Source: Micromonosporaceae bacterium
GTDB lineage: Bacteria; Actinomycetota; Actinomycetes; Mycobacteriales; Micromonosporaceae
NCBI GenBank assembly: GCA_009377645.1
Contig: WHTQ01000001.1
Location: 62,001 to 126,000 of the forward strand
Reading direction: 5' to 3'
DNA length: 64,000 nucleotides
Shown here: piece by piece, positions 5,694-23,359 of the stretch
Position numbering within the stretch: the stretch's first letter is position 1
How the letters are laid out: every line of letters begins with the position of its first letter
Program-made: the position numbers and the translations under genes
The notes under the pieces: generated by a model
The model's input: only the letters and a program-made list of their open reading frames with translations
Databases searched by the model: none
Told to the model about the DNA's origin: nothing

Positions 5694-7012
5694 AGAACCA
5701 CCCTCTTTCCGGTGTCGGCCGCGGCCGGACGGGTACCGTCCGCGGCGGGGATGTGCGGACTGGCGAGCGCGGCCGCCCCCTCCAGGCTGAGCTGGAGGTG
5801 GCCGCCGGAGACGCCAGTGAGCAGGCACGCCTGCAGGACCAACAACCCCCACGCCCCCAGCAGCGGGTCGGCCCAGGGCAGCGCGGCCAGTGGCCGCCGG
5901 CCGCCGGCCCACAGCAGCCCGGCCGCCGCGGCCGCCTGCTCGCCCAGCCCGGGGGCGCCGTCGTCGGGCGGGTCGAACGCGGTCAGGGACAGGCGCAGCA
6001 GCTGCGGCGCGCGGGTCTCGAACCACCGCTTGGTGAACCCGAGCTGGGCCAGCGCCCGGGGCGTGTAGGCGTAGACGAGCACGTCCGCGTCCCGCAGCAG
6101 GGCCGCCAGCGCGGTCCGGCCGTGCGGGGTCCGCGCGTCCAGCGTCCGGCTCTGCTTGCCCTGGCCGAACCGGGCCGCCGCACCGGGTCCACCCGGTCGC
6201 TCGACCCGGACCACCCGCTCGCCGCCGTGCGCCAGCTGCTGGCACAGCCACGGCCCGGCCCACAGCGGGGTCCAGTCCACGATGGTCCGCGGGCCGCGGC
6301 GGCCCGGCCGCGCGCCGGCCGCCCGCAGCGGCGACTGGAGCCGGACCGCCGGGGGACGCGCCGGGCCGGGGCGGACGGCGCCGACCAGCAGACGGCACTC
6401 CCGCGCCACCCGGGTGACGTGGTCGACCGGCAGGTCGGCGATCCGGCCGCCGCCCTGCCGAAGCACCGCGTGGAGCAGCCGCCGGTCGTCGCCGTCCCGC
6501 CACCGGGCGACCACCCAGCCGTCGCCGCACCGGAGAGTCTCGACATCGGATGGTGGTTGCTCCGGCAGGCCGGCGACCAGCCCGGCGGCGGTGCCGGCCG
6601 GCTCCAGCAGGGAGGCCGGCCCACCGGAGCCGATCCCGCGCAGCGCCGCCCCGGCCACCCGCAGCGCCAGGTAGGTGGTGGCCACCGGCCACCCCGGGCC
6701 GCGCCGGTCCCCGGCCCGGACGGTGGCCGCGGTGACCCCCGCCTGCCGCCGGACCGCCGCCTCGCCGCGCCAACCCGGGAGCACGACCAGGTGCTCCCGG
6801 CCGTCCTCGGCCCGGAGCCGGAGCGTCTCCGCACCGCCGTCGAGCCGGAGCGTCTCCGCACCGCCGTCGGAACCGGTGGCCGCCGCTCCCAGCCCGCCCA
6901 GCAGCGACCCGGCGCGGGCGGCCGGGCCGGCCGGGTGGCCGGAAGTCACGACCGACCAGCCGGACAGCAGGCGGCCGGGCAGCAGCGGCTCAGGCGATCG
7001 GCGCAAGCTCAC
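5690..7012 (-). CDS. Degenerate CoA-transferase family III (CaiB/BaiF-like) protein
   Basis: 440-residue protein made of two partial CaiB/BaiF-like halves. The C-terminal half starts at about residue 225 with VDWTPLWAGPWLC and RVVRVERPGG, the typical CoA-transferase N-terminus, and ends soon after HLQLSLEGAAAL. That last motif is where active members read VDVSxxDA, so the aspartate that carries the acyl group in formyl-CoA transferase (Asp169) is Gly here. The N-terminal half carries weaker remnants (HPAGPAARAGSLLGGLGA, LRCGDGWVVARW). GTG start; 23-bp overlap with the amidohydrolase gene. It may be a structural or non-catalytic partner, or decaying. Confidence 0.7.
   Translation of the reverse strand: MSLRRSPEPLLPGRLLSGWSVVTSGHPAGPAARAGSLLGGLGAAATGSDGGAETLRLDGGAETLRLRAEDGREHLVVLPGWRGEAAVRRQAGVTAATVRAGDRRGPGWPVATTYLALRVAGAALRGIGSGGPASLLEPAGTAAGLVAGLPEQPPSDVETLRCGDGWVVARWRDGDDRRLLHAVLRQGGGRIADLPVDHVTRVARECRLLVGAVRPGPARPPAVRLQSPLRAAGARPGRRGPRTIVDWTPLWAGPWLCQQLAHGGERVVRVERPGGPGAAARFGQGKQSRTLDARTPHGRTALAALLRDADVLVYAYTPRALAQLGFTKRWFETRAPQLLRLSLTAFDPPDDGAPGLGEQAAAAAGLLWAGGRRPLAALPWADPLLGAWGLLVLQACLLTGVSGGHLQLSLEGAAALASPHIPAADGTRPAAADTGKRVVL
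6815..6868. repeat. Perfect 27-bp tandem duplication inside the CoA-transferase-like gene
   Basis: Two identical adjacent 27-bp units (6815-6841 and 6842-6868) duplicate nine codons in frame, giving DGGAETLRL twice in the N-terminal part of the 5690-7012 protein. It looks like a recent slippage event and agrees with relaxed constraint on that half. Confidence 0.92.
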
Positions 7013-8477
7013 CTCCGTCGACGACTCCGGACACTGCCAGCTCGGCGCCGGCCCGCGGGTCGCCGTCCAGCAGCACCGCCGCCCCCGGACCGCCGGGCGC
7101 CAGCCGCCCGTACCCGGCCCGGCCCAGCCCCGAGTGGTCGGCCGCCCAGGTGGTCAGCGCGCTGAGCGCCTGGGACCAGCTCAGCGCCTCGTCCGGGCCG
7201 ATGGTCCGGCCCGCCGCGGTGACCCGGGACCGGGCCGCGTGGAACGCCCGCACCGGCTCCACCGGGCCGGCCGGGGCGTCCGAGCCGACCGCCAGCCGTA
7301 CCCCGGCGCGCAGCCAGGAGGCCAGCCGGTAGAGCCCGTCCCCGCCCGGCGCCACCTCCTCGGCGAGGTGGCGGTCGCCGTGCGCGGACACGAACGACGG
7401 GTGGGTCACCACCACCGCGCCGAGCCGGGCCAGCCGGTCCAGCCACTCCGGCGGGCACACCGCGGCGTGCTCGATCCGCAGCCCCCGCCGGTGCCGCGGC
7501 GGCACCGCCTCGGCGGTCCCGATCACCGCCGCGAGGGTCTCCACCTCGGTGCAGTGGACCGCGACGTCGAAGCCGCGCCGCCAGCTGGCGGGCAGGGTCT
7601 CGGCGAGCTCCTGCGCCGAGCCGGGCATGAGCTTGTGCCCGGTCACCGGCACCGGCGGGGCGGCCAGCGCGGCCGAGGGGGCGGCCAGCGCGGTGACCCG
7701 CTGGCGGACCAGCCCGTCCGCCCGCCACCGCGCCAGCGCGGCCAGCTCGGCGCCGCCGTTGGTGCAGGTCGCGTCGGCCATCCCGAGCACCCCGTGCCGC
7801 CGCAGCTCCGCCGACCAGCCGGCCAGTGCTCGGGCGAAGTCGGCCTCGCCGGTGAGCCGCCCGGCGGCCCGCCGGAACCAGCCGGTGTGGTCCACGATCT
7901 GCCCGGTCGGGGCGCCGGTGGGGTCCCGCTCGACCTCCGGACCGGCGCCGCCGTCCCGGCCGGCCACCCCTAGCGCCGCCAGCGCGGCGGTGTTGACCGA
8001 CCAGGCGTGCAGCGACCGGTGGCGGATCCGGACCGGAACGCCGCCGCTGGCGGCGTCCAGCTCGCTCCGGCGGGGCGGCCGGCGCTCGGCCAGGTGCTCG
8101 GGCTGCAGCCCCCAGAACGACCGCCAGCCGGCGCCGGCCCGGCAGCCGGCCGCCACCTCGGCCAGCAGCTCGCCGATCGACCGGCACCGGCTCACGTCCC
8201 GGTACGCGGACCGGGCCGCGCTGGCCCGGACGTGCACGTGCGCGTCCACGAAGCCCGGCACCAGCCAGCGGCCGGCCGCGTCGACCCGGGGCGCCCCGGC
8301 CGGCAGGCTCGACTCGACCTCCGATCGGCCGCCCACCGCGCTGACCCGGCCGGCAGCGTCGACCCCCAGCGCACTGCCCGCCACGCCGGTCCCGGCGCCG
8401 GCCCACACCACCGCGTTGACCACCGCGAAGGGTGCGGGCACCGGCTCGCCGGGCCGGACCGGGCGGGCGGCGCTCAC
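6990..8477 (-). CDS. Amidohydrolase family protein (YtcJ-like)
   Basis: 495-residue metal-dependent amidohydrolase of the YtcJ type. HVH at residues 80-82 (FVDAHVHV), IEHAAVCPPEW and the late LAVGSDAPAGPVEPV supply the metal ligands; an insert carrying NTAALAALG and GQIVDHTGWF is typical of this subfamily. It would hydrolyse an amide, a deaminable C-N bond or a related bond; substrates of the subfamily are mostly unknown. The start is the GTG at 8477, forming a GTGA overlap with the acyl-CoA synthetase stop; in-frame sequence further upstream is only that gene in another frame. Confidence 0.82.
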   Translation of the reverse strand: MSAARPVRPGEPVPAPFAVVNAVVWAGAGTGVAGSALGVDAAGRVSAVGGRSEVESSLPAGAPRVDAAGRWLVPGFVDAHVHVRASAARSAYRDVSRCRSIGELLAEVAAGCRAGAGWRSFWGLQPEHLAERRPPRRSELDAASGGVPVRIRHRSLHAWSVNTAALAALGVAGRDGGAGPEVERDPTGAPTGQIVDHTGWFRRAAGRLTGEADFARALAGWSAELRRHGVLGMADATCTNGGAELAALARWRADGLVRQRVTALAAPSAALAAPPVPVTGHKLMPGSAQELAETLPASWRRGFDVAVHCTEVETLAAVIGTAEAVPPRHRRGLRIEHAAVCPPEWLDRLARLGAVVVTHPSFVSAHGDRHLAEEVAPGGDGLYRLASWLRAGVRLAVGSDAPAGPVEPVRAFHAARSRVTAAGRTIGPDEALSWSQALSALTTWAADHSGLGRAGYGRLAPGGPGAAVLLDGDPRAGAELAVSGVVDGGELAPIA

Positions 8478-9961
8478 CGGAACAGCTCCACCAGCTGGCG
8501 CCGGAGCAGCTTGCCGGTGTCCGAGTAGGGAAGCTGGTCGGCGCGCAGGAACCGGGCCGGGACCTTGAACGAGCTCAACCGCTCCCGCGCCCACCCGGTC
8601 AGGGTGGCGTCGTCGACCGGCGTGGCCAGCACCACCACCGCCCCGACCACCGCGCCCCACTCCGGGTCGGGGATGCCGACCGCGGCCACGTCCCGCACCG
8701 CCGGGTGCTGGCGCAGCACGGCCTCCACATCGGCCGGCGCGATGTTCTCGCCACCCCGGATGATCATGTCGTCGGCCCGCCCGAGCAGGAACAGGAAGCC
8801 CTCGTCGTCCAGGTATCCCCGGTCCCCAGTGACGAAGTAGACGTCCGGCCCGGCGTCCCGGCGCGACCGGTACTCGCCGCTGACCTGCGCGCCGCGCACC
8901 GCCACCTGGCCCGCGGCGCCGGCCGGCAGCGGCCGCCGGTCCTCGTCGAGCACCGCCAGCGACACGCCGGGCAGGGCCCGGCCCACCGATCCCAGCCGCG
9001 CCTGGACCCGCGGGTCGGCGCTGTCCAGCGCGGCCCGGTGGTCGTCCGGCCCCAGCACGGCGATGGTGGAGCTGGTCTCGGTCAGGCCGTACGCGTTCAC
9101 GAAGCCGACCCGGGGCCCGAACCCGGCCAGCGCCCGCCGGATCAGCGGCTCGCCGCACGGCCCCCCGCCGTACGCGAGGTGGCGCAGCTGGCCGGGTGCC
9201 CCGTGCGGGTCCCGCTCCAGCTCGTCGACGATCCGGGCCAGCATGGTGGGCACCACGAAGGCGTGGGTGACCCGCTCCTGGCGGGCGAGCGCCAGCCAGT
9301 CCGCGGCCGAGAACCGGGGCAGGAAGACCATCCGGCGCCCGGCGTACAGGGCGGTGACCACCCCCATCACCCCGGCGATGTGGTACGGCGGTACGGCCAC
9401 CAGCGCGGTCTCGCCGTCGGCCGCGGCACCCGGCTCGGCCGAGCCGACCACATAGGAGGTGAGGTGCCGGTGCCGGAGCAGCACCGCCTTCGGGCGGGCG
9501 GTGGTCCCGCTGGTGTAGAGGCTGACCGCGACCTGCTCCGGGTCCACGTCGGGCAGCTCGGTGTCCAGGTCCGGCGGGTCGGGGTCGAACGACACGACCT
9601 CCCGGCCGGCGGCCAGCGCCCGCGCCCGGTCGCGCATGCCGGGACCGTGGCCAAGCAGCGCCGGACCCAGCCCCGCCAGCAGCGGCCCGAGCGCGTCGTC
9701 CCGCAGCCGGTAGTTGAGCGGCGCGAAGGTCAGCCCCGCCAGGCCGCTCGCGTACAGCGCCTCCACGAACTGCGGCCCGGCCTCCCCGAGGTAGGCCACG
9801 GTGCCGGCGCCGGACCGGGCCGCCCGGCCGGACAGCTCCCCGGCCCGGCGCTGCGCCCGCGCCGCGAACCCGGCCACGTCCCACCGCCGGCCGGCGGCCG
9901 CCAGCGCGGGCCGGTCCCCGGCCACGCTGACCGCGATGTCCAGCAGGGTGGCGAGGTTCAT
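8474..9961 (-). CDS. AMP-dependent acyl-CoA synthetase
   Basis: 495-residue adenylate-forming ligase that activates a carboxylic acid to its CoA thioester via an acyl-AMP. The AMP-binding P-loop YTSGTTARPKA is at 149-159, GYLDDEGFLFLLGRADDMII and RGGENIAPADVEAVL mark the hinge, and the C-terminal catalytic lysine is K484 in YSDTGKLLRRQL. All key residues are intact. The stop overlaps the amidohydrolase start (GTGA) and the start overlaps the enoyl-CoA hydratase gene by 4 bp. It probably performs the first activation step for the operon substrate, with the CoA-transferases acting later. Acid specificity unknown. Confidence 0.9.
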   Translation of the reverse strand: MNLATLLDIAVSVAGDRPALAAAGRRWDVAGFAARAQRRAGELSGRAARSGAGTVAYLGEAGPQFVEALYASGLAGLTFAPLNYRLRDDALGPLLAGLGPALLGHGPGMRDRARALAAGREVVSFDPDPPDLDTELPDVDPEQVAVSLYTSGTTARPKAVLLRHRHLTSYVVGSAEPGAAADGETALVAVPPYHIAGVMGVVTALYAGRRMVFLPRFSAADWLALARQERVTHAFVVPTMLARIVDELERDPHGAPGQLRHLAYGGGPCGEPLIRRALAGFGPRVGFVNAYGLTETSSTIAVLGPDDHRAALDSADPRVQARLGSVGRALPGVSLAVLDEDRRPLPAGAAGQVAVRGAQVSGEYRSRRDAGPDVYFVTGDRGYLDDEGFLFLLGRADDMIIRGGENIAPADVEAVLRQHPAVRDVAAVGIPDPEWGAVVGAVVVLATPVDDATLTGWARERLSSFKVPARFLRADQLPYSDTGKLLRRQLVELFR

Positions 9962-11133
9962 GCCGGTCCGCCGTCCCGGGCAAGCTGCCGGGCGGCCCGG
10001 CGCAGCTCAGGCACCAGCGCGTCGGCGGGCACCACGCCGTCCACCAGGCCCCAGGCGCGGGCGGTGGCGGCGTCCACCGGCTGCCTGGTGACCACCATCT
10101 GCAGGGTGCGGTGCCGGCCGATCCGGGCCGGGAGGCTGACCGTCCCGCCGGCGCCCGGCACCAGGCCCATCCCGGCCTCGGGCAGCCGGAAGGTGGTCTC
10201 CGGGGTGGCCAGCAGCACCCGCGCGAACGCGGGCAGCTCGACCCCCGCGCCGACGCAGGCCCCGTGCGCGCCGGCCACCAGGCGCCCGGAGAGCCGGCGC
10301 AGCCGGCGCGGCACCGACCGGGCAAGCCGGAGCCGGTGGCCGTCCACCCCGCCGGCGACGGTGCCGAACTCGTCCAGGTCACCGCCGGCGCAGAACGACC
10401 GGCCGGCGCCGCGCAGCACCACCGGGCGCCCCGCCGGGCCGGCGGCGACGGCGTCGAGGGCGTCGCACAGCTCCTCGCGCATCCGCGCGTCGAACGCGTT
10501 GCGCCGGTGCGGTCGGGACAGCACCAGCTCCACCCGGTCCGCGCCGTCCCGCACCGCCACCCGGGATCCGGGCTCGGCGTCCCGGGCGCGGCCGGCCCGG
10601 CCCACCAGCCAGGCCAGGTGCTCCGGGCCGCCCTGCAGGGTCGAGTAGGCCAGCGACTCGCCGGTCAGCGAGGGCCGGGGAGCGCGCAGCAGCTGCGCGG
10701 CCAGCAGGCACGCGTCGGGCGCCGCCCGGATCCGGTCGACCCAGCCCGCCAGCACCCCGGCCAGCCCGGCCGGGTCGGACTCCAGGTTGAACAGCCGGTC
10801 ACCGGCGCCGGTCCGGGACCCGACCCGCACCCGCAGGTCGCAGCCGGCGATCACCGGCCGGACCGCCGGCGGCACGTGGTCTGCCCGGACCACCCCGACC
10901 GTGACCAGCGGGCTGCCGGCCAGGTGCCCGGCGGCGACGCCCGGGCCGGCCGCGGCGGCGGCCAGCCAGCCGGCCAGGTCGCCGGCGACCACCGCCACCC
11001 CGGCGCGGTCCGCCGCCCGCGGGTCAGCCAGGTCCCACGGCGCCACCGGCGCGGCCAGCGCGGCCGGGCCGATCGTCAGTCGCTCGACGGAATCCGGCGC
11101 ATGTCGAGCGGCCGCATCGGTTGCCGGCAGCAT
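9958..11133 (-). CDS. Enoyl-CoA hydratase/isomerase with N-terminal extension
   Basis: Crotonase-fold protein of about 391 residues, some 130 longer than a standard enoyl-CoA hydratase. The C-terminal 200-plus residues carry the fold: RSFCAGGDLDEF (oxyanion hole), GACVGAGVELPAFA and FRLPEAGMGLVPGAGG, with both catalytic glutamates. The N-terminal region looks like a worn crotonase half (CLLAAQLLRAPRPSLTG). The start is uncertain: ATG at 11133 has a GGAGGGGGG sequence about 9 nt upstream but overlaps the mini-protein gene by 58 bp; a CTG at 11079 would form a CTGA overlap. Active hydratase chemistry is likely. Confidence 0.78.
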   Translation of the reverse strand: MLPATDAAARHAPDSVERLTIGPAALAAPVAPWDLADPRAADRAGVAVVAGDLAGWLAAAAAGPGVAAGHLAGSPLVTVGVVRADHVPPAVRPVIAGCDLRVRVGSRTGAGDRLFNLESDPAGLAGVLAGWVDRIRAAPDACLLAAQLLRAPRPSLTGESLAYSTLQGGPEHLAWLVGRAGRARDAEPGSRVAVRDGADRVELVLSRPHRRNAFDARMREELCDALDAVAAGPAGRPVVLRGAGRSFCAGGDLDEFGTVAGGVDGHRLRLARSVPRRLRRLSGRLVAGAHGACVGAGVELPAFARVLLATPETTFRLPEAGMGLVPGAGGTVSLPARIGRHRTLQMVVTRQPVDAATARAWGLVDGVVPADALVPELRRAARQLARDGGPA

Positions 11134-11489: not shown

Positions 11490-12656
11490 TCACTGCAGGA
11501 CTCCGGTCTCGACCAGGTGCGCGTAGTCGGCCGCGGACCGGCCGAGCAGCTCCCGCACCACGTACTCGTTGTCCTCCCCCATCAGCGGCGCCCGGCCGAC
11601 CTGGCCGGTCTCCCCCCACCACAGCCACGGTTCCCGGTAGACCATCTCCCAGCCGATCACCGGGTGCTCGGTCTCCAGGTAGGTGCCGCGGCTGCGGTAG
11701 TGTGGGTGGTGGAACCGGTCCCCGGCGTCGGTCACCGCGCCGGCGGCGACGCCGGCCGCCTGCAGCACCTCCATCGCCTCGACGTGGTCCCGGTCCAGGC
11801 ACCAGCCGGACAGCGCCTGCTCGATCGCCTCCGGCGTCCCGGCCGGATCGACCCCCAGCAGCTCGGCGATTCGCCGGAGGTCCTCCGGCCCCTCGGCCTG
11901 GACGGTCACCCAGCTGTCCTCGCCCCGGCAGCGCAGGCAGGCCTGGAACGCCTCGCCCCCGTAGCCGCCGTTGCCCACCACCGGCGGGTCGCCGCCGAGC
12001 AGGTCGACCGCCACCACCGCCTCGCCGACCGTGGCCAGGCCGGCCTCCAGCTGGGACACGTCGATGTGCTCGCCGAGGCCGGTCTGGTTGCGCCGGTAGA
12101 TCGCGGCGAGCAGCGCGAACGCGCCGTGCAGGCTGGCGTTCGGGTCCGGGTACGCCTGCTGGATGCCGATCGGCTCCTCGCCCGGGTAGCCGGCCAGCGA
12201 GTCCAGCCCGGAGTACGCGGCGATGGTGGACGCGTAGCTGCGCAGCTCCCGCAGCGGTCCCTGCTGCCCGCCGCCGGACAGCGACAGCATCACCAGGTCC
12301 GGCCGCTGCTCGGCCAGCCGCTCGTAGCCGAGCCCGGCCCGGTCCAGCACTCCCGGCGCGAAGTTCTCGATCGCCACGTCGCAGTGCCGGACCAGCTCCA
12401 GGATCAGCTCCCGGCCGGCGTCGCTGCGGAAGTCCACTGTGAGGCTGCGCTTGCCGCGGTTGACGTTGTGGAACATCGGCTGCTGCTCCGGGTCCGGCTC
12501 GGTGCCCACGATCGGCCGGCCGACCCGCATGTAGTCCAGCCGCTTCCGCGTCTCGACCTTGATCACCTCGGCCCCGAGGAAGCCGAGCATCTGCCCGGGC
12601 ACCGCCCCGGCCCAGACCCAGCCGAAGTCGAGCACCCGCACCCCGTCCAGCCTCAT
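11490..12656 (-). CDS. CoA-transferase family III, W-type subunit
   Basis: 388-residue CaiB/BaiF-family protein that moves CoA between carboxylic acids. N-terminal RVLDFGWVWAGAVPGQ, LGAEVIKVE, VAIENFAPGVLDRAGLGY and LVMLSLSGGGQQGP are typical. At the active-site position it has Glu (IDVSQLEAG, E204) in place of the usual Asp, a variant common in this family. It overlaps the next transferase gene (12653-13801) by 4 bp. Together they resemble the two-subunit benzylsuccinate CoA-transferase (BbsE/BbsF) arrangement. Its closest relative here, by N-terminal pattern, is the 14982-16181 protein. Confidence 0.88.
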   Translation of the reverse strand: MRLDGVRVLDFGWVWAGAVPGQMLGFLGAEVIKVETRKRLDYMRVGRPIVGTEPDPEQQPMFHNVNRGKRSLTVDFRSDAGRELILELVRHCDVAIENFAPGVLDRAGLGYERLAEQRPDLVMLSLSGGGQQGPLRELRSYASTIAAYSGLDSLAGYPGEEPIGIQQAYPDPNASLHGAFALLAAIYRRNQTGLGEHIDVSQLEAGLATVGEAVVAVDLLGGDPPVVGNGGYGGEAFQACLRCRGEDSWVTVQAEGPEDLRRIAELLGVDPAGTPEAIEQALSGWCLDRDHVEAMEVLQAAGVAAGAVTDAGDRFHHPHYRSRGTYLETEHPVIGWEMVYREPWLWWGETGQVGRAPLMGEDNEYVVRELLGRSAADYAHLVETGVLQ

Positions 12657-13801
12657 CGCCCCTCCTCCCGGACCGGCACCGGACCCGGCGGGGTGAGCGA
12701 CGCGGTGCGGAACCGGAACGGTGGCCGGGGGGCAGTGACCGGCACCCCGGTCCCGCCCTCGAAGGTCTCCAGGCACCCCCGCTCCCGCAGCGCCGGATCG
12801 TCGCGCACCTCGCTGACCGTCTGCACCTGGGCGGCCGGGATCTTCCGCCGCCGGCACTCGGCGGCGATCTCGGCCCGGGTGCGGGCCATGAACCACGGCG
12901 CCAGCGCCGCGTCCACCGCGTCGCCGTGCTCGTCGTTCATCGCCCGCCGGGAGCCGAACGGCCGCTCGGCGTACCAGTCGGCCTTTCCGACCATCTCCAG
13001 GAACTCGCGGTACTGGTGCTTCTCCGAGGCCTGGATGGCGATCCAGCCGTCCTGGCACCGGAACAGCTGGTGCGGGTACGGCGCGCCGAGTACCCGGTGG
13101 CCGTAGCGCCCCCGGACCCGGTTGCCGAACAGGTACGCGACCAGGGTGGTGCCGGTGTGGACGGTGGCCCACACGTCGGTGACCGACACCTCCGCCACCG
13201 CCGGCTCTCCGGCCGGCCGGTCCGGCGCGGACTCGCCCGCCGGGCCGCACAGGTGGCCGAGCACCGCGATCCCGGCGATCAGCCCGCCCTGCACCGCGCC
13301 CTGCATCAGCGGGATCTTCAGCGGCGGCCGGTCCGGCTGCCCGATCGCGACGTTCACCCCGCCGAACGCCGAGGTCACGATCTCCGGGCCGCGGTAGCCG
13401 GCGTACTGGCCGGACTCGCCGAACGGGCTGATCAGCGCCACCACCCGCACCGGGAGCCGGCGGACCAGCTCGTGGTCGATGCCGAGCGCGGCCCGGCGGG
13501 CCGGCTCCAGGTCCACAATGCACGCGTCCGCGCCCTCGCACAGCCGCACCAGGTCGGCCCCGGTGGCGATGCCGGCCACCGGCTTCCCCTCGTTGAAGTA
13601 GTCGAACGCGGCGGTGGTGTGGCGCCCGTCCGCCCGGTGCGGGAACGAGCCGCGGTGGCGCAGCGGGTCACCCTCGCCCGCCTCCAGCTTCACCACCTCG
13701 GCGCCCAGCCGGCGCAGCAGCTTGCCGGCGTAGCCGCCGGCCCCGCGCTCGCTGAGCTCGACGCAGCGCAGCCCGGCCAGCGGGTGGACCGGCCCGGTCA
13801 T
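12653..13801 (-). CDS. CoA-transferase family III, K-type subunit
   Basis: 382-residue CaiB/BaiF-like protein. It opens with LRCVELSERGAGGYAGKLL and GAEVVKLEAGEGDPL and lacks the W-x-x-AGP stretch of the W-type partner. The active-site Asp is present as D209 in EVSVTDVW. PFGESGQYAGYRGPEIV and FGGVNVAIGQPD follow the family. ATGA overlaps at both ends couple it to the W-type gene (11490) and the MaoC gene (13798). The same AGKLL / GAEVVKLE signature returns in the 16214-17416 protein, implying duplication of a K/W pair. Confidence 0.86.
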   Translation of the reverse strand: MTGPVHPLAGLRCVELSERGAGGYAGKLLRRLGAEVVKLEAGEGDPLRHRGSFPHRADGRHTTAAFDYFNEGKPVAGIATGADLVRLCEGADACIVDLEPARRAALGIDHELVRRLPVRVVALISPFGESGQYAGYRGPEIVTSAFGGVNVAIGQPDRPPLKIPLMQGAVQGGLIAGIAVLGHLCGPAGESAPDRPAGEPAVAEVSVTDVWATVHTGTTLVAYLFGNRVRGRYGHRVLGAPYPHQLFRCQDGWIAIQASEKHQYREFLEMVGKADWYAERPFGSRRAMNDEHGDAVDAALAPWFMARTRAEIAAECRRRKIPAAQVQTVSEVRDDPALRERGCLETFEGGTGVPVTAPRPPFRFRTASLTPPGPVPVREEGR

Positions 13802-14982
13802 GACCCACCGCCGTCCCGGCGCGGGGCGGTTCGGCTGGGCAGCGCCACCGTCGCCAGCCCCGGCATGGTGCGCTCGCCGAGCTGGTTCTCGCCCCACACC
13901 TCGCAGTCGACCAGCCACCGGTCGCCGTCCTGGTAGGTCGAGGTGACGGTGCCCTTCAGCCAGGTGGTGTCGCCGATCACGTTGAACCCGCGCAGCTCGG
14001 CCCGCAGCCGGACCAGCCGGCCCAGGTCGCCCATCCAGTTGGTCAGCAGCGTGGCCAGCCAGGAGATCCGCTGCGGCCCATAGTCGTACGCGCCGGGCGC
14101 CCCCAGCCCCTTGGCGGTGCTCGCCTGCATGTGGCCCAGCCCGGTGTACTCCACCCCGGCGCCGCGAGCCTGCCGGAAGTAGTGCGCCGGGTGCCGCTTC
14201 GCCTCCCGGAGCAGTACGCCGTGCGAGCCGCGGGACCGGCCGACCCCGATCAGGTAGGCGGTGATGTCCATGTGGCTCAGCGGGCCGCGGACGATGGCGG
14301 GCAGCGCTTCGCCGGCGGTCACGTCCTCCACGTACCGCGGCTCGCCGCCCCGGATGCCCGACTCCTCCGCCCCACTGAGGTGCTCGATCTCGTCCAGCTG
14401 CGCCTCGGGGTAGTCGTGCCGGGACGGCCGGTCCGCCGGCTGCTCCTGCTTGTCCTCCTTCTTGTCCGCAGTGGACTTCAGCCGGTCGCGCTCGTGCCGG
14501 GTGCTCCACCCCTCGGCCACCGCGACCAGCTCGTCGCGCTGGTTGAAGTAGCTGGTCTCGGTCCGGGTCAGCACCAGCCGGGAGGACAGCCGGCTGGACT
14601 TCTCCTCCACCCCGGTGACCCGCTCGGTGCAGGCGATCTGGTCGCCCGGCTTCACCTGCCGGAACCACCGCCAGTCGTTGCCCCCGAAGAACCCGTGCAC
14701 CCCGGGCAGGCCGAACCGGGTCCGTCCCGGGTAGTGCCGGGCGTACGGGAAGCACGGGTGCGCGACGATCCCGCCCCACCTGGTCCAGGTCGCGTACTCG
14801 GGGTCGCGGAACAGCGGGTTGAGGTCCCCGATCCCGTTGACGAAGTTGCGCAGCGTGTCGGGCGTGGCGAACCGGACGAACCGCTCGGTGCGCAGCTCCC
14901 GCCCGACCAGGGCGTACAGCTTCTCCAGCGCCTCGTCGGTGATCCGGCCCCGCGGCTCGGCCGGCTGCTGGTCACGGTCCAT
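13798..14982 (-). CDS. Two-domain MaoC-like dehydratase (FAS1-type N-domain)
   Basis: 394-residue double-hot-dog protein. The N-terminal part (about 1-165) is of the FAS1-like dehydratase type: GIGDLNPLFRDPEYA, RWGGIVAHPCFPYARHY and KPGDQIACTERV. A charged linker (DKKEDKQEQPADRPSRHDY) joins it to a C-terminal MaoC-like half with LSHMDITAYLIGVG and GPQRISWLATLLTNWMGD. Expected activity is hydration/dehydration of a bulky acyl-CoA. It lies exactly between two CoA-transferase pairs, with TGATG and ATGA overlaps to its neighbours. The start is fixed by the ATG at 14982. Confidence 0.82.
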   Translation of the reverse strand: MDRDQQPAEPRGRITDEALEKLYALVGRELRTERFVRFATPDTLRNFVNGIGDLNPLFRDPEYATWTRWGGIVAHPCFPYARHYPGRTRFGLPGVHGFFGGNDWRWFRQVKPGDQIACTERVTGVEEKSSRLSSRLVLTRTETSYFNQRDELVAVAEGWSTRHERDRLKSTADKKEDKQEQPADRPSRHDYPEAQLDEIEHLSGAEESGIRGGEPRYVEDVTAGEALPAIVRGPLSHMDITAYLIGVGRSRGSHGVLLREAKRHPAHYFRQARGAGVEYTGLGHMQASTAKGLGAPGAYDYGPQRISWLATLLTNWMGDLGRLVRLRAELRGFNVIGDTTWLKGTVTSTYQDGDRWLVDCEVWGENQLGERTMPGLATVALPSRTAPRRDGGGS

Positions 14983-16181
14983 CAGTGCAACACCTCGCTG
15001 GTCTCCAGCTCGTCGATCTCCTCGTCGGACAGACCGAGGACCTGCCCGTACACGTACCGGTTGTCCTGCCCGATGCTCGGCGACCACTGCACCGGCGGCA
15101 GCGCGGACCGGCTGAACCGCCACGGCGGCCCGACGCTGAGGTGCTCCCCCCGCTCCGGGTCCCGGGCCATCCTGACCGTCCCCCGCTCCCACAGGTGCGG
15201 GTCGCGCGCCAGGTCCTCCCCGCTCATCACCGGCACGGCGGGGATCCCCCGCTGCTGCAGCGCGAACGCCGCCCCGTACGGCCCCCGGCGGCTGGTCCAC
15301 CCGGACAGCGCAGGGTCGATGTCGGCCCGCCGGCCGGCCCGGCCGGCGACCGTCCCCAGTGCCGGGTCGACCGTCCACTCCGGCCGTTCCAGCAGCCCGC
15401 ACAGGCGCTGCCAGGACTCCTCCGTGCGGACCGAGACCGCCACCCACCGGTCGGTTCCCGCGCACCGGTAGACCCCGCTGGGCTCGGCTCCGGCCTCCCG
15501 GTCGCCGGTGCGCTCCGGTGCCCGGCCGGAGACCGTCCGCTCGACGAACGCGTGCCCGGCCAGCAGCGTGGCGGCGTCCCGGTTCGCCAGGTCGACGTAC
15601 TGGCCGCGGCCGGTCACCTGCCGCTGCCGCAGCGCGGCCAGCACCGCGAAGGTGCCGAACAGCCCGCAGACGTGGTCCATCGGGTTGCGCATCTCGACCG
15701 GCGGTCCGTCCGGGTAGCCGCCGAGGCTGCTCAACCCGGACAGCGCGCTGAACAGCGGGGCGTACCCCGGCCGGGCGGCGTCCGGACCCTGCTGCCCGTT
15801 GGCGGACAGCGACACCATCACCAGGTCCGACCGGCGGGCGCTCAGCACCGGGTAGTCCAGCCCCAGCCGGGCCATCACCCCGGGGCGGAAGTTCTCCACC
15901 ACCACATCGGACCGGGCGGCCAGCTCCCGGGCCAGCTCCTGCCCGCGCGGGGTACGCAGGTTCAGCGAGGCCGACAGCCGGTGGGACAGCAGCTGGTCGA
16001 ACGCCGGGACGTAGTCCCGACCGTAGATGGGGTGCTCCTTGCGGTGAGTGTCCCGCTTGGTGCGGCTCTCGATCCGGATCACCTCGGCACCGAGCATCCC
16101 GAGCATCAGGGTCGCGAACGGGCCGGCCGCGTACCACGAGAAGTCCGCGACCCGTACCCCCTGGAGTGGCCTGCGCGCCAT
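14982..16181 (-). CDS. CoA-transferase family III, W-type subunit (second copy)
   Basis: 399-residue CaiB/BaiF-family protein. N-terminal VRVADFSWYAAGPFATLML, GAEVIRIESRTKRD, VVVENFRPGVMARLGLDY and VMVSLSANGQQGP resemble the 11490 protein closely in layout. Active-site Asp is D202 (YVDLANRDAAT). The ATG at 16181 has GGAGGCGGGA directly upstream and is preferred over the GTG at 16217 that forms a GTGA overlap with the previous gene. Both are possible. Likely partner of the 16214 K-type protein in a hetero-oligomeric transferase. Confidence 0.87.
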   Translation of the reverse strand: MARRPLQGVRVADFSWYAAGPFATLMLGMLGAEVIRIESRTKRDTHRKEHPIYGRDYVPAFDQLLSHRLSASLNLRTPRGQELARELAARSDVVVENFRPGVMARLGLDYPVLSARRSDLVMVSLSANGQQGPDAARPGYAPLFSALSGLSSLGGYPDGPPVEMRNPMDHVCGLFGTFAVLAALRQRQVTGRGQYVDLANRDAATLLAGHAFVERTVSGRAPERTGDREAGAEPSGVYRCAGTDRWVAVSVRTEESWQRLCGLLERPEWTVDPALGTVAGRAGRRADIDPALSGWTSRRGPYGAAFALQQRGIPAVPVMSGEDLARDPHLWERGTVRMARDPERGEHLSVGPPWRFSRSALPPVQWSPSIGQDNRYVYGQVLGLSDEEIDELETSEVLH

Positions 16182-16213
16182 TCCCGCCTCCGTTCCGGCT
16201 TGCTGGGTGCGGC

Positions 16214-17416
16214 TCACAGCGCACCCCGCGACCGCAGCCCGTCGATCTCGGCCGCCGACATGCCGAGGTAGCTGCCGTAGATCTCGGTGGTGTGCTCCCC
16301 CAGCCCGGGCGCCGGCCGCTCGTCGATCGGCTCCCCGCCGGTGCCGAGCCGGAACGGCATCCGGGGGTAGCTGCCCGGCCCGGCCCGCGGGTGGTCGATG
16401 CGCTGGAACGACCCGCGCTCCCGCGCGTGCGGGGTCGCCATCGCCTCGTCCACGTCGTAGTACGGCGCGATCGGGCAGGCAGAGGTCTGCCCGATCGCGG
16501 CGAGCTGGTCCCGTTTGCGGGTGCGCATCCACTCCCGGAGGTGCTGGTTGACCTCCCGGCCGTGGCGGGCTCGGTCCCGGCCGGTGGCGAACCGCTCGTC
16601 GGCGGCCCACTGCGGGTTTCCCATCAGCCCCACCAGGTCTTGCCACTGGTGCTCCTCCAGCGGCAGCACCTCGACGTAGCCGTCGGCGCAGGGCATCACG
16701 CCGCCGAAGGTGAACCCGCGGCTGGCGGTGGTCTCCAGCACCCCGTCGAAGAACCGCATCACCGGCAGGTGGTTGAGCGAGAGCTGGGCGTCCTGGGCGG
16801 AGACGTCGACGAACTGGCCCCGCCCGGTGTGGTCGCGGTCGAGCAGGGCGGCCAGCGCCCCGGTCGCCGCGGTCAGCCCGGTCTGGTAGCCGGCGAGGTG
16901 GCCGCCGGCGCCGACCGGCGGCCGGTCCGGGAACTGCTCGTGGAGCAGGCCCGCGCCCAGCAGGTAGCCCTCGCCGCCGGCGTGGAAGATGGTGTGCTCG
17001 CTGCCGGCGAAGCCGTGGTACGGGCCGGTCGCGCCGAACGGGCTGGTGGCCACCACCACCAGCCGCGGGAACTGTTCCGGCAGCCGCTCCACAGGCAGCT
17101 CCGGGCTGTGCTCCACGCCGTGCTCCTCGGCCAGCCCGGTGGTGTCGACCAGCAGCACGTCGAAGCACGGGAGCAGCCGGTAGAGCAGCTCCCGGCCGTC
17201 CGGGTGGGCCAGGTTGGCGGTGACCGCCCGCTTGCCGGTATTCAGGAACAGGAACAGCGCCGGATCCGGGCCATCCGGGTCCCGGGTGGGGTCCCCGGCC
17301 GGGTACCGCTCGAGCTTCACCACCTCCGCCCCGAACCCGGCCAGCAGCTTGCCGGCGAACGCCGCGCTGACCTGCCCCGACACCTCGAGGACCTGCACAT
17401 CGCCGAGCATGGTCAC
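16214..17416 (-). CDS. CoA-transferase family III, K-type subunit (second copy)
   Basis: About 400 residues, CaiB/BaiF family. It opens VQVLEVSGQVSAAFAGKLL then GAEVVKLERYPAGDPT, matching the 12653 protein. SPFGATGPYHGFAGSEHT and HTGRGQFVDVSAQDAQLSLN follow; the active-site Asp is D207 counted from the inner ATG. The GTG at 17416 sits 6 nt after GGAGG, whereas the ATG at 17410 is 12 nt away, so GTG is preferred. First CoA-transferase translated in the operon, 34 bp after the alcohol dehydrogenase gene. Confidence 0.87.
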   Translation of the reverse strand: MTMLGDVQVLEVSGQVSAAFAGKLLAGFGAEVVKLERYPAGDPTRDPDGPDPALFLFLNTGKRAVTANLAHPDGRELLYRLLPCFDVLLVDTTGLAEEHGVEHSPELPVERLPEQFPRLVVVATSPFGATGPYHGFAGSEHTIFHAGGEGYLLGAGLLHEQFPDRPPVGAGGHLAGYQTGLTAATGALAALLDRDHTGRGQFVDVSAQDAQLSLNHLPVMRFFDGVLETTASRGFTFGGVMPCADGYVEVLPLEEHQWQDLVGLMGNPQWAADERFATGRDRARHGREVNQHLREWMRTRKRDQLAAIGQTSACPIAPYYDVDEAMATPHARERGSFQRIDHPRAGPGSYPRMPFRLGTGGEPIDERPAPGLGEHTTEIYGSYLGMSAAEIDGLRSRGAL

Positions 17417-17450: not shown

Positions 17451-18482
17451 TCATGGTGTGAGGACCCACTTCCCGAAGCCGTCGCGGGACTCCAGCCGCT
17501 GGTGGACCTCCCGCACCTCCGGCAGCGGGCGGACCTCGCAGATGGTGGGGGTGAGCACGCCCTCGCCCACCAGCCGCAGCACCGAACGCACGTCCGCGGT
17601 GGTGGCCCGCCGGGCGCCCACCACCCGGATCTCCCGGCGGAACAGCTCCACCAGGTCCAGCGGCACCACCTCGCCGGCGTGCGCACCCACCACGATCATC
17701 GTTCCGCCGACCGCGAGCGCCGCGAGCGCGTCCTGGAAGATCTCCCCGCCCGCGGTCTCGCACACGTAGTCGACCGGCCGGCCGATCCGGCGTACCCCGT
17801 CGACCAGGCTCTCGGCCCGGTAGTCGATCCCGGCGTCGGCCCCGGCGGCCAGGCACCGCGCGACCCGCGCGGCCGAGCCGGCCGCCGCGATCACGGTGGC
17901 GCCGCACCCGGCGGCGACCTGGAGCGCCGCCGTGCCCACCCCGCCGGCCGCCCCGGTCACCAGCACGGTGCTGCCGGGCGGCACCCGGGCCAGCCGGACC
18001 AGCGCGTGCCAGGCGGTGCCGAAGGCGATCTGGGTCGCCGCCGCGTCGACGTGGCTGACCACCTCCGGCAGCGGCACCAGCCCCCGCTCCGGCACCGCCA
18101 CCAGCTCGGTGTAGCCGCCGCCGATGTTGACCCCGGGCAGCAGGGCGGCCGGGCAGTTGTTGTCCTCCCCGCGGACGCAGTAGTCGCACCTGCCGCACGA
18201 GATGTGGGCGCGCACCAGCACCCGGTCGCCCACCCGGGTGTGCGCCACCCGGTCGCCCAGCTCCACCACGTCACCGGCGATCTCCCGGCCCAGGGTGTGG
18301 GGCAGCGGGATGTCGTAGCGGGACCGGCCGCGCCGGATGTCGAGGTCCAGGTGGTTCACGCCGCACGCCCGGACCCGCACCAGCACCTGGTCCGCGACGG
18401 GCACGGGCGCCGGCCGGTCCACCAGGTCCAGCACGGCCGGCCCCCCGAACCGCTCGAAGCTGGCGGTCAGCGTACCGGTCAT
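17451..18482 (-). CDS. Zinc-type alcohol dehydrogenase / MDR oxidoreductase
   Basis: 343-residue medium-chain dehydrogenase. VRACGVNHLDLDIRRG and LPHTLGREIAGDVVELG form the catalytic domain; the structural-zinc loop CGRCDYCVRGEDNNC has all four cysteines; the Rossmann motif is VTGAAGGVGTAALQVA. Probable NAD(P)-dependent oxidation of a hydroxy intermediate produced by the hydratases of the operon. ATGA overlap with hydantoinase B upstream. It could be a quinone/enoyl reductase by the GAAGGVG form, but the zinc loop favours alcohol dehydrogenase. Confidence 0.87.
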   Translation of the reverse strand: MTGTLTASFERFGGPAVLDLVDRPAPVPVADQVLVRVRACGVNHLDLDIRRGRSRYDIPLPHTLGREIAGDVVELGDRVAHTRVGDRVLVRAHISCGRCDYCVRGEDNNCPAALLPGVNIGGGYTELVAVPERGLVPLPEVVSHVDAAATQIAFGTAWHALVRLARVPPGSTVLVTGAAGGVGTAALQVAAGCGATVIAAAGSAARVARCLAAGADAGIDYRAESLVDGVRRIGRPVDYVCETAGGEIFQDALAALAVGGTMIVVGAHAGEVVPLDLVELFRREIRVVGARRATTADVRSVLRLVGEGVLTPTICEVRPLPEVREVHQRLESRDGFGKWVLTP

Positions 18483-20158
18483 CCCGGCCCGCCCTCGGTG
18501 GCCGCGGTCAGGTAGCCCCGCACCACGTCCCGCTCCCGCAGCTCGGGCCGGCGGCCGGCCGGGGCGCCGTACCCGCCGCCCCCGGGGGTCCGGTAGGTGA
18601 GCACGTCGCCGGGCGAGAGCACGGCCTCCTGGTGCCCGTCCACCAGCACCCCGTTGATCAGGACCTCGCCGCGGGCGCCCGGCTCGCCGCCCTTCACCCC
18701 GGCCGGCGCGCGGTGCAGCCGGCCCGGGTAGACGCAGAAGGTGACCGGCCGGTCCGGGTCGATGTCCCCGTCGGCCGGCACCCGGATCCGGAACTCCTCG
18801 CCCAGGCCGCCCCGGGTGGTGCCGGCCCCGCCGGAGCCGGCCCGCAGCGCCCGCTCCTCGACGATCAGCGGGGTCTCGGTCTCGATCACCTCGGTCGGGA
18901 TGTCCCGCACGTTGGGCGGGAACGCCACCGCCGAGACCCCGTCCCGGTCCGGGCGGGCGCCCAGCCCGCCCATCGCGTGCGCGTTGAGCAGGAACGGCCG
19001 CCCGTCCCGGCGGGTGCCGGCGACCGTGAACAGCCACACCGGGCAGGCGCCCGACTCGGCCAGCACCTTCTCCGGGACCGCGTCCGCGAACGCCGAGAAC
19101 AGCATGTCCGGGATCCGCAGGCCGACGAAGTGCCGCCAGTGGCAGGCCGCCGGGTAGCGGGCGTTGAGGATCGACCCGACCGGCGCGGAGATCTCCACCG
19201 GCCGGTACGAGCCGTCGTTGTTGGGCAGGAACGGCGCGACCGCCAGCTTCACCCCCAGGACCGTGTACGCGCGGGTGTAGTTGAGCACGCAGTTGATCGG
19301 CTTGGAGACCTGCGGCGAGGTGCCGGCGAAGTCGATGGCCACGGTGCCGTCCCGGACCACGATCCGGGACACCAGCCGGAGCGGCTGGCCGGCGTCGTCG
19401 CGCTGCTCCAGGTCCGCCTCCCCGGCGTACTCCCCGTCGGGCAGGGTGCGGATCGCGTCCCGCATCTGCCGTTCGGTGGTCCGGATGATCGCCTCCGCCG
19501 CCCCGTCCAGGGTCTGGAGGCCGAACATGTCCATCGACTCCAGCACCCGCTCGATCCCGACGTGGGTGGCGGCCACCTGCGCCCGGATGTCGCCCAGCAC
19601 CTTCTCCGCGAACCGCACGTTGAGCGCGATCGTGTCCACGATGTCCTTGCGCGGCCGGCCCGCCACGTACATCTTCAGCGGCGGCAGCAGCAGCCCCTCC
19701 TCGTAGACGGTCCGGCTCTCCGGGGAGGCCATCCGCCCGCCGATGTCCATCTGGTGGGCGGAGGTAACCACCATCCCGACGAAGCTGCTGCCCCGGTAGA
19801 TCGGCGAGGCGGCGTACAGGTCGTTGTTGTGGCCGCAGCCGATCCACGGGTCGTTGGTGATCACGACGTCCCCGGCCGACAGGTCCGCCGGGCCGAACCG
19901 CCGGAGGATCTCGCGTCCCAGGTACGGCATCGCTCCGATGTGTCCGGTCGCGGACTCGGACGACTGCGCCAGCATGTTGCCGTGGTGGTCGAAGATGCCG
20001 ACCGAGTAGTCGTGGTTCTCGCGCAGCACCGTCGAGAAGCCGGTCCGGGCGATGCTGTACCCCACCTCGTCGGCGATCGACAGGAACCGGGTCCACAGTG
20101 CCTCCAGCCGGATCTGGTCGATCCCGGCCACGCCCCCCGCGTCGTGTTCGTCAGTCAT
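18479..20158 (-). CDS. hyuB: Hydantoinase B / 5-oxoprolinase beta-like subunit (HyuB)
   Basis: 559-residue HyuB-family protein, partner of HyuA in ATP-dependent cyclic-amide hydrolases (N-methylhydantoinase, 5-oxoprolinase) and in acetone/acetophenone carboxylases. Typical stretches are YSIARTGFSTVLRENHDYSV, IFDHHGNMLAQSSE, AGDVVITNDPWIGCGHNNDL and the Gly-rich C-terminus RTPGGGGYGAP. Length matches hydantoinase B rather than the larger acetone carboxylase subunits. It is 12 bp downstream of hyuA. In this operon it adds an ATP-driven ring-opening step beside two metal-dependent amidohydrolases. Confidence 0.87.
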   Translation of the reverse strand: MTDEHDAGGVAGIDQIRLEALWTRFLSIADEVGYSIARTGFSTVLRENHDYSVGIFDHHGNMLAQSSESATGHIGAMPYLGREILRRFGPADLSAGDVVITNDPWIGCGHNNDLYAASPIYRGSSFVGMVVTSAHQMDIGGRMASPESRTVYEEGLLLPPLKMYVAGRPRKDIVDTIALNVRFAEKVLGDIRAQVAATHVGIERVLESMDMFGLQTLDGAAEAIIRTTERQMRDAIRTLPDGEYAGEADLEQRDDAGQPLRLVSRIVVRDGTVAIDFAGTSPQVSKPINCVLNYTRAYTVLGVKLAVAPFLPNNDGSYRPVEISAPVGSILNARYPAACHWRHFVGLRIPDMLFSAFADAVPEKVLAESGACPVWLFTVAGTRRDGRPFLLNAHAMGGLGARPDRDGVSAVAFPPNVRDIPTEVIETETPLIVEERALRAGSGGAGTTRGGLGEEFRIRVPADGDIDPDRPVTFCVYPGRLHRAPAGVKGGEPGARGEVLINGVLVDGHQEAVLSPGDVLTYRTPGGGGYGAPAGRRPELRERDVVRGYLTAATEGGPG

Positions 20159-20170: not shown

Positions 20171-22261
20171 TCACGAGATCTCGATCAGGAAGTGCCCGCC
20201 GGCCAGCCGGACCACGGTCGCGTCCGAACCGGCCACCACACTTGTCTCCGCCTGCTCGATGATGCAGGGGCCAGGCACCGTGGTGCCCTCCGGCAGCAGG
20301 TCGCCGACCACCACGGCGAACTCCGCCCACTCGTTGGTCGCCAGGTCGTACGCCGGCCGGGTGCCGGTGGTGGCGGTCCCGGCGACGGTCGCCGCGGCAG
20401 TGCCCGACCAGGGCACCCCGCGGTCGACCGCCTCCCCCCGTACCCGCACCCGGACCAGGTCCAGCGGCACGTCGTCGTACGTGTAGCCGTACTGCCGGGA
20501 GTAGGCCGCGTCGAACGCCTGCCGGACCCACTGCGCGGTGAGCTCCTCCGGCCGCTCGCACAGGTCCAGCGGCACGGCGTAGTCCTGCCCGCTGTAGCAG
20601 GCGTCGATCTCGGCGTGCAGCCGCACCTCCCGACCGGGAGCGGCCAGCTCCAGCGCGTCGCTCACCTCGTCGGCCAGTTCCTGGCGGGTCGCGAACACCT
20701 CGGCCGGGGACACCGCGTCGAACCGCACCCGCAGCGCCCGGCTGGCCAGATAGGACACCGGCGCCACCATGAACCCCAGGGCGGAGGCCAGCCCGGCCGC
20801 GTACGGGACGATCACCCGCCCGATGCCCAGCTTGCGGGCCAGGCCGTAGGCGTGGACCGGCCCGGCGCCACCGGAGGCGACCAGCGTCCGCTTGGTCCTG
20901 TCGACCCCCCGCTCGGCCAGGTAGCTGCTGATCGCCGCGGCCATGTTCTCGTTGACGATGTCGTGGATGCCGAACGCCGCCCGGTGCAGGCTCAGCCCCA
21001 GCGGCTCCCCGACCCGCGCGAGGATCGCCCGCTCGGCCAGGCCGGCGTCCGGGTGCAGCCCGGGCCGCCGGAAGCTGTCCGCCGAGACGAAGCCGAGCAC
21101 CAGGTCGGCGTCGGTGACGGTGGGCTCGGTGCCACCGCGGCCGTAGCCGGCCGGACCCGGCTCCGCCCCGGCGCTGCGCGGGCCGACCCCCAGCAGCCCG
21201 CGCTCGTTGACCGCCGCGATGCTGCCGCCGCCGGCTCCGATCTCGACCAGGTCCACCGCCTCGACTCCGACCGGCAGGCCGCTGCCCTTGCGTAGCCGCA
21301 GCATCCGGGCCACCTCGAACTCGTTGGTCATCGGGACCGTGCCACCGGAGACCACGCACGCCTTGGCGGTGGTGCCGCCCATGTCGAACGCGATCACGTC
21401 GTCCTCACCGGCCTGCCGGCCGGCGTGGACGGCGGCCAGCACCCCGGCCACCGGCCCGGACTCGATGATCCGCACCGGGAACGCCTTCGCGGTCTCGGTC
21501 GAGAGCACGCCACCGGACGAGTGCATGAGCAGCAGCCGGCCGCGGGTGCCGCGCTCGGCCAGCCGCGACTCCAGCGAGGTCAGGTACCGGCTGACCAGCG
21601 GCCGGGAGTACGCGTTGATGGCGGTGGAGCTGGTCCGCTCGAACTCCTTCAGCTCCGGCAGCACGTCCGAGGACAGCGACACCGACAGCTCCGGCGCCAC
21701 CCGGGCGAGGATGTCCCGGGTCGCCCGCTCGTGGTCGGGCCGCAGGTACGAGTGCAGGTAGCAGACCGCCACGCTCGCCACGCCCAGCTCCGCCAGCCGG
21801 GCCGCGACCGCCGCGATCTCGTCCTCGTCCACCGGGGCCAGCTCCGCCCCGTCGCTGCGCAGCCGGGCACTGACCTCGAACCGCAGCTCCCGCGGGATCA
21901 GCGGCTCACGGTGGTCGCCGCGGATGTCATAGACCTCGTTGCGCTTGTGCCGGCGCAGCTCCAGCACGTCCCGGAACCCGCGGGTGGTCAGCAGCGCGGT
22001 CGGCGGACCGGTCCGCTCGATCACCGCGTTGATCACCAGGGTGGTGCCGTGAATGATGTGCTCGGCACCGGTCAGCGCGTCCGGCACGTCCCGGACCAGA
22101 TCCTCCAGCCCGCGCATGATCCCGACCTCCGGCTGCTCCGGGGTGGTCAGCTCCTTGCGCCGGACCACCGCGCCGGTGTCCGTGCTGACCAGCACGAGGT
22201 CGGTGAAGGTGCCACCCACGTCGATCCCGATCCGGTATCGCGGCCGCTCCGCCACGCTCAT
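20171..22261 (-). CDS. hyuA: Hydantoinase A / 5-oxoprolinase alpha-like subunit (HyuA)
   Basis: 696-residue ASKHA-fold ATPase subunit. Phosphate loops are GIDVGGTFTD (residues 12-21) and FDMGGTTAKA near residue 295. HGTTLVINAVIER, GFRDVLELRRHKRNEVYD, SINAYSRP-type sequence (TAINAYSRPLVSRYL) and VASGGAGPVHAYGLARKLG are characteristic of HyuA. The start ATG at 22261 overlaps the ABC ATPase stop as ATGA, so import and ring opening are translationally linked. N-methylhydantoinase, 5-oxoprolinase or a related carboxylase activity cannot be separated by sequence alone. Confidence 0.9.
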   Translation of the reverse strand: MSVAERPRYRIGIDVGGTFTDLVLVSTDTGAVVRRKELTTPEQPEVGIMRGLEDLVRDVPDALTGAEHIIHGTTLVINAVIERTGPPTALLTTRGFRDVLELRRHKRNEVYDIRGDHREPLIPRELRFEVSARLRSDGAELAPVDEDEIAAVAARLAELGVASVAVCYLHSYLRPDHERATRDILARVAPELSVSLSSDVLPELKEFERTSSTAINAYSRPLVSRYLTSLESRLAERGTRGRLLLMHSSGGVLSTETAKAFPVRIIESGPVAGVLAAVHAGRQAGEDDVIAFDMGGTTAKACVVSGGTVPMTNEFEVARMLRLRKGSGLPVGVEAVDLVEIGAGGGSIAAVNERGLLGVGPRSAGAEPGPAGYGRGGTEPTVTDADLVLGFVSADSFRRPGLHPDAGLAERAILARVGEPLGLSLHRAAFGIHDIVNENMAAAISSYLAERGVDRTKRTLVASGGAGPVHAYGLARKLGIGRVIVPYAAGLASALGFMVAPVSYLASRALRVRFDAVSPAEVFATRQELADEVSDALELAAPGREVRLHAEIDACYSGQDYAVPLDLCERPEELTAQWVRQAFDAAYSRQYGYTYDDVPLDLVRVRVRGEAVDRGVPWSGTAAATVAGTATTGTRPAYDLATNEWAEFAVVVGDLLPEGTTVPGPCIIEQAETSVVAGSDATVVRLAGGHFLIEIS

Positions 22262-23340: not shown

Positions 23341-23359
23341 GGCTGTGCCACCTTTCTGC

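Follow-up and report, generated by a model that had tools for sequence, protein, structure and literature searches.

Two candidate heteromeric family III CoA-transferases encoded around a MaoC hydratase gene in a Micromonosporaceae operon

Family III transferases of coenzyme A (CoA) that are built from two different subunits are known from a few anaerobic and autotrophic pathways. The locus described here raises the question of whether such an enzyme is encoded twice in one operon and, if so, where the two pairs of subunits came from and what they might do. The window, by which we mean the whole stretch of 64,000 nucleotides analyzed here (Micromonosporaceae bacterium, contig WHTQ01000001.1, positions 62,001 to 126,000), has 72% G+C and belongs to a genome of 4.97 Mb. 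Five of its minus-strand genes follow each other in the order K1, W1, MaoC2, K2 and W2 (Table 1). An earlier note, made from the nucleotide sequence, had proposed this layout, and the gene calls agree with it in coordinates, strand and order. K1 and W1 are separated by 32 nucleotides; the subsequent junctions, from W1 through MaoC2 and K2 to W2, are overlaps of 1 or 4 nucleotides, an operon-like arrangement.

The four putative transferase subunits were compared with the Pfam profile CoA_transf_3 (PF02515, cut-off 23.3 bits). K1, W1, K2 and W2 scored 238, 320, 203 and 272 bits, respectively, and all four span profile positions 1–360/366, as expected for full-length CaiB/BaiF proteins. The N-terminal motifs that had been claimed to tell the two types apart were read in both proteins of each type, AGKLL..GAEVVKLE in K1 and K2 and WYAAG/WVWAG in W1 and W2. 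A likeness to the two-subunit transferase BbsE/BbsF had also been suggested and is borne out by sequence scores, fold and the tree described below, at identities of 24–35%. Pairwise scores agreed with an assignment of W1 and W2 to BbsF and of K2 to BbsE. Single-chain AlphaFold models of W1 and K2 were compared by Foldseek. With the W1 model (predicted local distance difference test score, pLDDT, 79; predicted template modeling score, pTM, 0.76), BbsF chains were found at ranks 1–3 and BbsE at rank 35. The K2 model returned BbsE chains at ranks 2–4, after 4ED9, and BbsF at rank 31.

Orthologs of K1 with more than 36% identity were not found in 150 genomes of the order or in 396 genomes of the phylum. 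Relatives were therefore collected through the MaoC2 gene, which led to 79 genome loci and 8 plasmids, 5 of which were read, giving 84 loci for comparison. The MaoC2 relatives in these loci are 50–55% identical. MaoC adjoins a single K/W pair, with K before W, in 77 of the 84 loci, and in all but one of these 77 it lies directly upstream of K–W, within 115 nucleotides. Among the seven exceptions are two short contigs that are cut near MaoC (L038 and L050). In Shinella lacus (L029, 10022–12586, plus strand), K and W are fused beside MaoC in one frame of 855 residues, and further K–W fusions exist. A fused two-CaiB protein in the order W–K, with a K half lacking the aspartate, was seen in a frame of 1139 residues at L011 2075–5491 (minus strand). 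Other genes often present in the related loci encode a cysteine hydrolase, a second MaoC, a CitE-type lyase and a separate single CaiB; a relative of the cysteine hydrolase of the window adjoins MaoC–K–W in most of them.

The catalytic position was set by the numbering of Oxalobacter FRC (Asp169) and checked with 2VJO, which has the Q17A change at residue 17 and D at residue 169. The residues at FRC Asp169 are D169 in W1 and D171 in W2, but G176 in K1 and A169 in K2, and neither K protein has an Asp within several residues of this position. In BbsF the aligned catalytic residue is Asp178, in line with the title of PDB entry 9FOL ('D178-CoA adduct'); counting along the alignments gives Asp at residue 178 of BbsF and Ala at residue 178 of BbsE. 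The related pairs have Asp at the FRC-169 position in 77 of 77 W proteins and 0 of 77 K proteins, so in these pairs and in both pairs of the window it is restricted to the BbsF-type subunit. FRC Arg104 and the Asn96-Phe97 pair are likewise retained in W1 and W2 and gone in K1 and K2. The earlier note had given the active-site letters as D, D, D and E. These were read in a VDVSxxD/E motif (near FRC 199–203), about 30 residues past the catalytic Asp, and the reading is wrong. As judged from the alignments, K1 and K2 appear to be family III members by fold and not catalytic transferases on their own.

With a single working site, that of W, conservation would be expected in the Rossmann domain of W and in the small domain of K. 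This prediction was addressed by the mean pairwise identity per domain, computed on orthologs from 63 non-redundant loci. For the N-terminal part of the Rossmann domain the values were 0.617 in K and 0.761 in W, and for the small domain 0.615 in K and 0.479 in W. The difference of differences is 0.28, with a bootstrap 95% confidence interval of 0.25–0.30 that is optimistic, as the loci are related to each other. Single CaiB enzymes from 22 of these loci lie in between (Rossmann 0.606, small domain 0.516), as expected of a homodimer, which uses both domains. Pair 1, compared with its orthologs, follows the same pattern (Rossmann/small domain 0.425/0.418 for K1 and 0.521/0.321 for W1). Such complementary conservation fits a heterodimer with one working site.

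We consider it probable that the two proteins of each K/W pair form a heteromeric CoA-transferase of family III and of the BbsEF type, with one working site per dimer. K and W would assemble as the interlocked dimer of this family, in which W alone would supply the catalytic Asp and the usual CoA-contacting residues. K would be a pseudo-enzyme subunit whose small domain closes the pocket over the Rossmann domain of W, which would explain why K has retained this domain. Each heterodimer would thus contain one working site, made of the W Rossmann domain and the K small domain, and a second site that is dead. In the mechanism of this family, the Asp of W would attack the donor acyl-CoA to form a beta-aspartyl-CoA thioester, from which CoA would pass to the acceptor acid. 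Homodimers make up most of the family III enzymes in the PDB, and each protein in question has a complete family III domain, so four ordinary homodimeric transferases could merely lie side by side. This is very improbable in view of the loss of the catalytic Asp from K1, K2 and the K protein of all 77 related pairs, the strict K–W adjacency and natural fusions, and the complementary domain conservation. Moreover, BbsEF, the nearest solved relative of W1 by sequence and fold, is a heteromer.

Several results weigh against the heterodimer model. The K2 structure model is of medium confidence (pLDDT 70, pTM 0.62), and its template modeling scores are low (about 0.4–0.45, with a root-mean-square deviation of 18 Å), probably owing to a different placement of the two lobes in the single-chain model. 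By pairwise score K1 is about equally near to BbsE (118 bits) and BbsF (124 bits). The conservation values describe orthologs and not the population of this organism. For pair 2 the small-domain argument fails, because K2 lacks close orthologs and has diverged most in its small domain (Rossmann/small domain 0.343/0.187). Finally, the K lineage is not defined by Asp loss, because two K-type proteins (L018 1492 and L021 1501) still have Asp at the catalytic position; these could be two-site heterodimers.

The ancestry of the two pairs was analyzed in a main tree of 52 proteins, built with mixture models and 200 bootstrap trees, and in a second tree of 75 proteins. In the main tree, one branch separates 21 K proteins including BbsE from all others (support 100/100), and a second branch does so for 21 W proteins including BbsF (100/99); both groupings occur in all 200 bootstrap trees, and the 75-protein tree agrees. 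Thus the prediction that K would group with K and W with W was confirmed, and each window pair encodes a BbsE-side and a BbsF-side subunit side by side. Trees in which neighbors are closest relatives were rejected in the approximately unbiased (AU) test (K1+W1, p 0.00095; K2+W2, p 0.0096). The proteobacterial K proteins form the sister group of K1 (100/97), and the proteobacterial W proteins that of W1 (100/99). A sister relation of W1 and W2 was also rejected (p 0.005); one of K1 and K2 was not (p 0.11), and K2 is a long branch. The duplication of a whole heteromeric transferase put forward in the earlier note is therefore not supported as a local event, and the two pairs are not a recent tandem duplication of one pair: W1 is not sister to W2, and K1 and W1 each group with proteobacterial single-pair modules that have the same MaoC. 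It follows from the trees that the K/W split is old and that the two pairs did not arise from a recent copy in this operon. They appear to be separate old lineages of the heteromer that were joined in one operon. Two K/W pairs flanking MaoC were seen only in this window; a second genome with this layout was found neither in the 84 MaoC loci nor near the nearest W2 homologs or distant MaoC homologs.

The different ancestry, with W1 and W2 rejected as sisters and pair 1 next to proteobacterial pairs, is what one would expect of two heteromeric transferases with overlapping function that came from different sources and serve several related acids in parallel or redundantly, not in two steps. The operon further encodes an AMP-forming acyl-CoA ligase and a third, truncated CaiB-like protein, as in accreted catabolic clusters. 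Against such parallel enzymes stands the tight packing of the five genes, with overlaps of 1–4 nucleotides among W1, MaoC2, K2 and W2, which suggests a selected unit. We rate this explanation as quite plausible, if a little short of an even chance.

Alternatively, and in addition to the heterodimer model, there could be, as the earlier note proposed, two successive CoA transfers, one before and one after hydration by MaoC, comparable to mesaconyl-C1/C4 shuffling, but between or within molecules. The operon does have two distinct pairs on either side of MaoC; it also contains a second MaoC, and a CitE lyase is encoded nearby. In about 24 related loci the K/W pair is accompanied by a second, single CaiB, so that two CoA-transferases per cluster are common. 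In addition, K2/W2 diverge most from pair 1 where a difference in specificity would show, and the divergent K small domains of the two pairs suggest different acyl substrates. However, related clusters manage with one K/W pair, reaction order is not given by gene order, and W2 scores higher against BbsF (134 bits) than against the intramolecular transferase Mct (54 bits). Two successive transfers therefore seem rather unlikely. Less likely still is a pathway that moves CoA twice through two half-dead heterodimers around one hydration, with the K subunits as exchangeable specificity lids. If that were true, a heteromeric CoA-transferase could be retuned by changing K and not the catalytic W.

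The five genes lie in the middle of a minus-strand run of about 23 genes, which extends from a GntR/FCD regulator to an amidohydrolase in which most genes overlap or are separated by short gaps (Table 1).

Table 1. Genes of the minus-strand run in the window, listed from its 5' end
Feature	Coordinates	Strand	Remarks
GntR/FCD regulator, 5' end of run	26401..27090	-	
ATP-binding cassette (ABC) transporter	22258..26611	-	ATPase 22258-23340, permease 23385-25256, substrate-binding protein 25292-26611
HyuA-like subunit, caprolactamase-alpha-like	20171..22255	-	449 bits, cut-off 1000
HyuB-like subunit (hydantoinase B/oxoprolinase), caprolactamase-beta-like	18479..20158	-	210 bits, cut-off 1000
Zinc-type medium-chain (MDR) alcohol dehydrogenase/reductase	17454..18482	-	
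K1, BbsE-like (K-type) family III CoA-transferase subunit without catalytic Asp (G176)	16214..17416	-	
W1, BbsF-like (W-type) predicted catalytic subunit, Asp169	14982..16181	-	
MaoC2, long MaoC/FAS1_DH hydratase, 394 residues	13798..14982	-	FAS1_DH_region/MaoC match
K2, second divergent K-type subunit without catalytic Asp (A169)	12653..13801	-	
W2, second W-type predicted catalytic subunit, Asp171	11490..12656	-	
Desulforedoxin-like Cys-rich protein, 71 residues	11252..11464	-	16.9 bits, below cut-off 23
Desulforedoxin-like Cys-rich protein, 58 residues	11079..11252	-	21.5 bits, below cut-off 23
Enoyl-CoA hydratase/isomerase family protein with N-terminal extension	9958..11133	-	
AMP-forming acyl-CoA ligase	8474..9961	-	
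Amidohydrolase family 3 protein	6993..8477	-	
Truncated CaiB-like protein, 440 residues	5693..7012	-	
MaoC1, single hot-dog hydratase nearest RipB/Ich (itaconyl-CoA hydratase)	5157..5696	-	191 bits, cut-off 340
Isochorismatase-type cysteine hydrolase (amidase family)	4538..5164	-	
MmgE/PrpD family protein	3169..4563	-	
Carbon-nitrogen hydrolase (nitrilase superfamily)	2240..3175	-	
Dihydropyrimidinase/allantoinase-like amidohydrolase	838..2223	-	

In the truncated CaiB-like protein, the match to CoA_transf_3 is limited to residues 243–430 (profile 5–216). This part corresponds to the first half of a W-type Rossmann domain, without small domain, and retains the catalytic-Asp motif WADPLLG. The first 240 residues gave no match, and the idea that this half is a shrunken K received no support from profile comparison. 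A single partial relative (40%) was found in another genome of the same order (L128). Two tiny Cys-rich genes lie directly 3' of W2; a search by Cys pattern found no counterpart in the related loci. In a Dormibacterota metagenome-assembled genome (L028), relatives of MaoC2 (55%) and MaoC1 (60%) occur with PrpD and malate synthase and no CoA-transferase pair. An ATP-grasp/CoA-ligase gene stands upstream of the hydratase in place of the K/W pair; the MaoC hydratase can therefore work with another CoA-activating enzyme.

In anaerobic toluene degradation, the substrate of BbsEF is a 2-substituted succinate. Taken together with the neighboring genes, this makes it the most economical inference that the operon leads a branched or substituted dicarboxylic acid, formed by opening the ring of an N-heterocycle, into CoA-ester chemistry, and we make this assignment of substrate class tentatively. 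HyuAB, the nitrilase, the amidohydrolases and the cysteine hydrolase would open and deamidate the ring, and the MaoC hydratases, the MmgE/PrpD protein and a nearby CitE-type lyase would carry out the CoA-ester steps. The lyase, which is RipC/Ccl-like (150 bits, Ccl cut-off 375), is encoded on the other strand than the operon, ahead of the window and no more than 2.2 kb from its start (L009 9864–11762, plus strand); upstream of it are two further MmgE/PrpD genes. Three known cluster types were considered and rejected. For a plain itaconate cluster, MaoC1 and the nearest CitE stay below their cut-offs and the latter lies outside the window. HyuA and HyuB belong to the superfamily of caprolactamase CapAB, an ATP-dependent lactam hydrolase (PMC6061476), and of the ATP-dependent hydantoinases, but both scores are far below the cut-offs (Table 1). 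A benzylsuccinate (bbs/bss toluene) cluster does not fit the context, which consists of HyuAB, amidases, nitrilase and MmgE/PrpD; a gene for benzylsuccinate synthase was not seen near the locus. The same genome has a separate cluster (L013 2978–8234) that combines CitE with an Ich-like MaoC (51% to MaoC1) and a single CaiB whose nearest relatives are glutarate/mesaconate transferases.

The tree and the 77 MaoC–K–W modules show that the K/W design is old and widespread; most of its members carry no annotation beyond 'CoA transferase'. In K, the missing Asp and the retained small domain together offer a simple rule for which subunit catalyzes and which shapes the substrate pocket, and the same rule can be used to annotate gene pairs of the K/W type. 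The two pairs of the window lend themselves to a natural swap experiment, and the K–W fusion of Shinella lacus is a single-chain target for structural work on the heteromer.

Among known systems, BbsEF shares with the window the combination of a K-type and a W-type subunit and the restriction of Asp to one of them (D178 of BbsF); K1 and K2 fall with BbsE, and W1 and W2 with BbsF. In contrast, the window has two pairs, placed around MaoC in a HyuAB/amidase operon. SmtAB (succinyl-CoA:malate) and SptAB (succinyl-CoA:o-phthalate) also combine two different family III subunits into one transferase. The MaoC–K–W modules of Alpha- and Betaproteobacteria (e.g. Cupriavidus pinatubonensis plasmid p2, Agrobacterium, Variovorax, Bradyrhizobium) share the orthologous MaoC (50–55%), K1 (~41–44%) and W1 (~45%), with K before W, and a cysteine hydrolase, second MaoC and CitE nearby. 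They differ in having one K/W pair, and a branched-chain-type ABC transporter, a short-chain dehydrogenase/reductase (SDR), 3-hydroxyisobutyrate dehydrogenase (HIBDH) and a lactonase where the window has HyuAB and hydantoinases. Their genes are annotated only as 'MaoC family dehydratase' and 'CoA transferase', and a literature search for a cluster of MaoC, CaiB pair, CoA ester lyase and cysteine hydrolase found no report or function. In pseudomonads, Ich, Ccl, a CoA-transferase, an acyl-CoA dehydrogenase and an MmgE/PrpD isomerase degrade itaconate and methylsuccinate (PMC12290011). This ict-ich-ccl-mcd-mmgE cluster and the Mct-Meh-Mcl set of the 3-hydroxypropionate bicycle share with our locus a CoA-transferase, a MaoC-type hydratase, a CitE-type lyase and MmgE/PrpD, the logic of branched C5-dicarboxylate breakdown. 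Mct, however, is a homodimer and not a K/W pair, and in the itaconate/methylsuccinate comparison MaoC1 falls below the Ich cut-off and CitE lies outside the operon on the opposite strand. The N-heterocycle-opening genes of the window set it apart from both systems, which have no counterpart of them.

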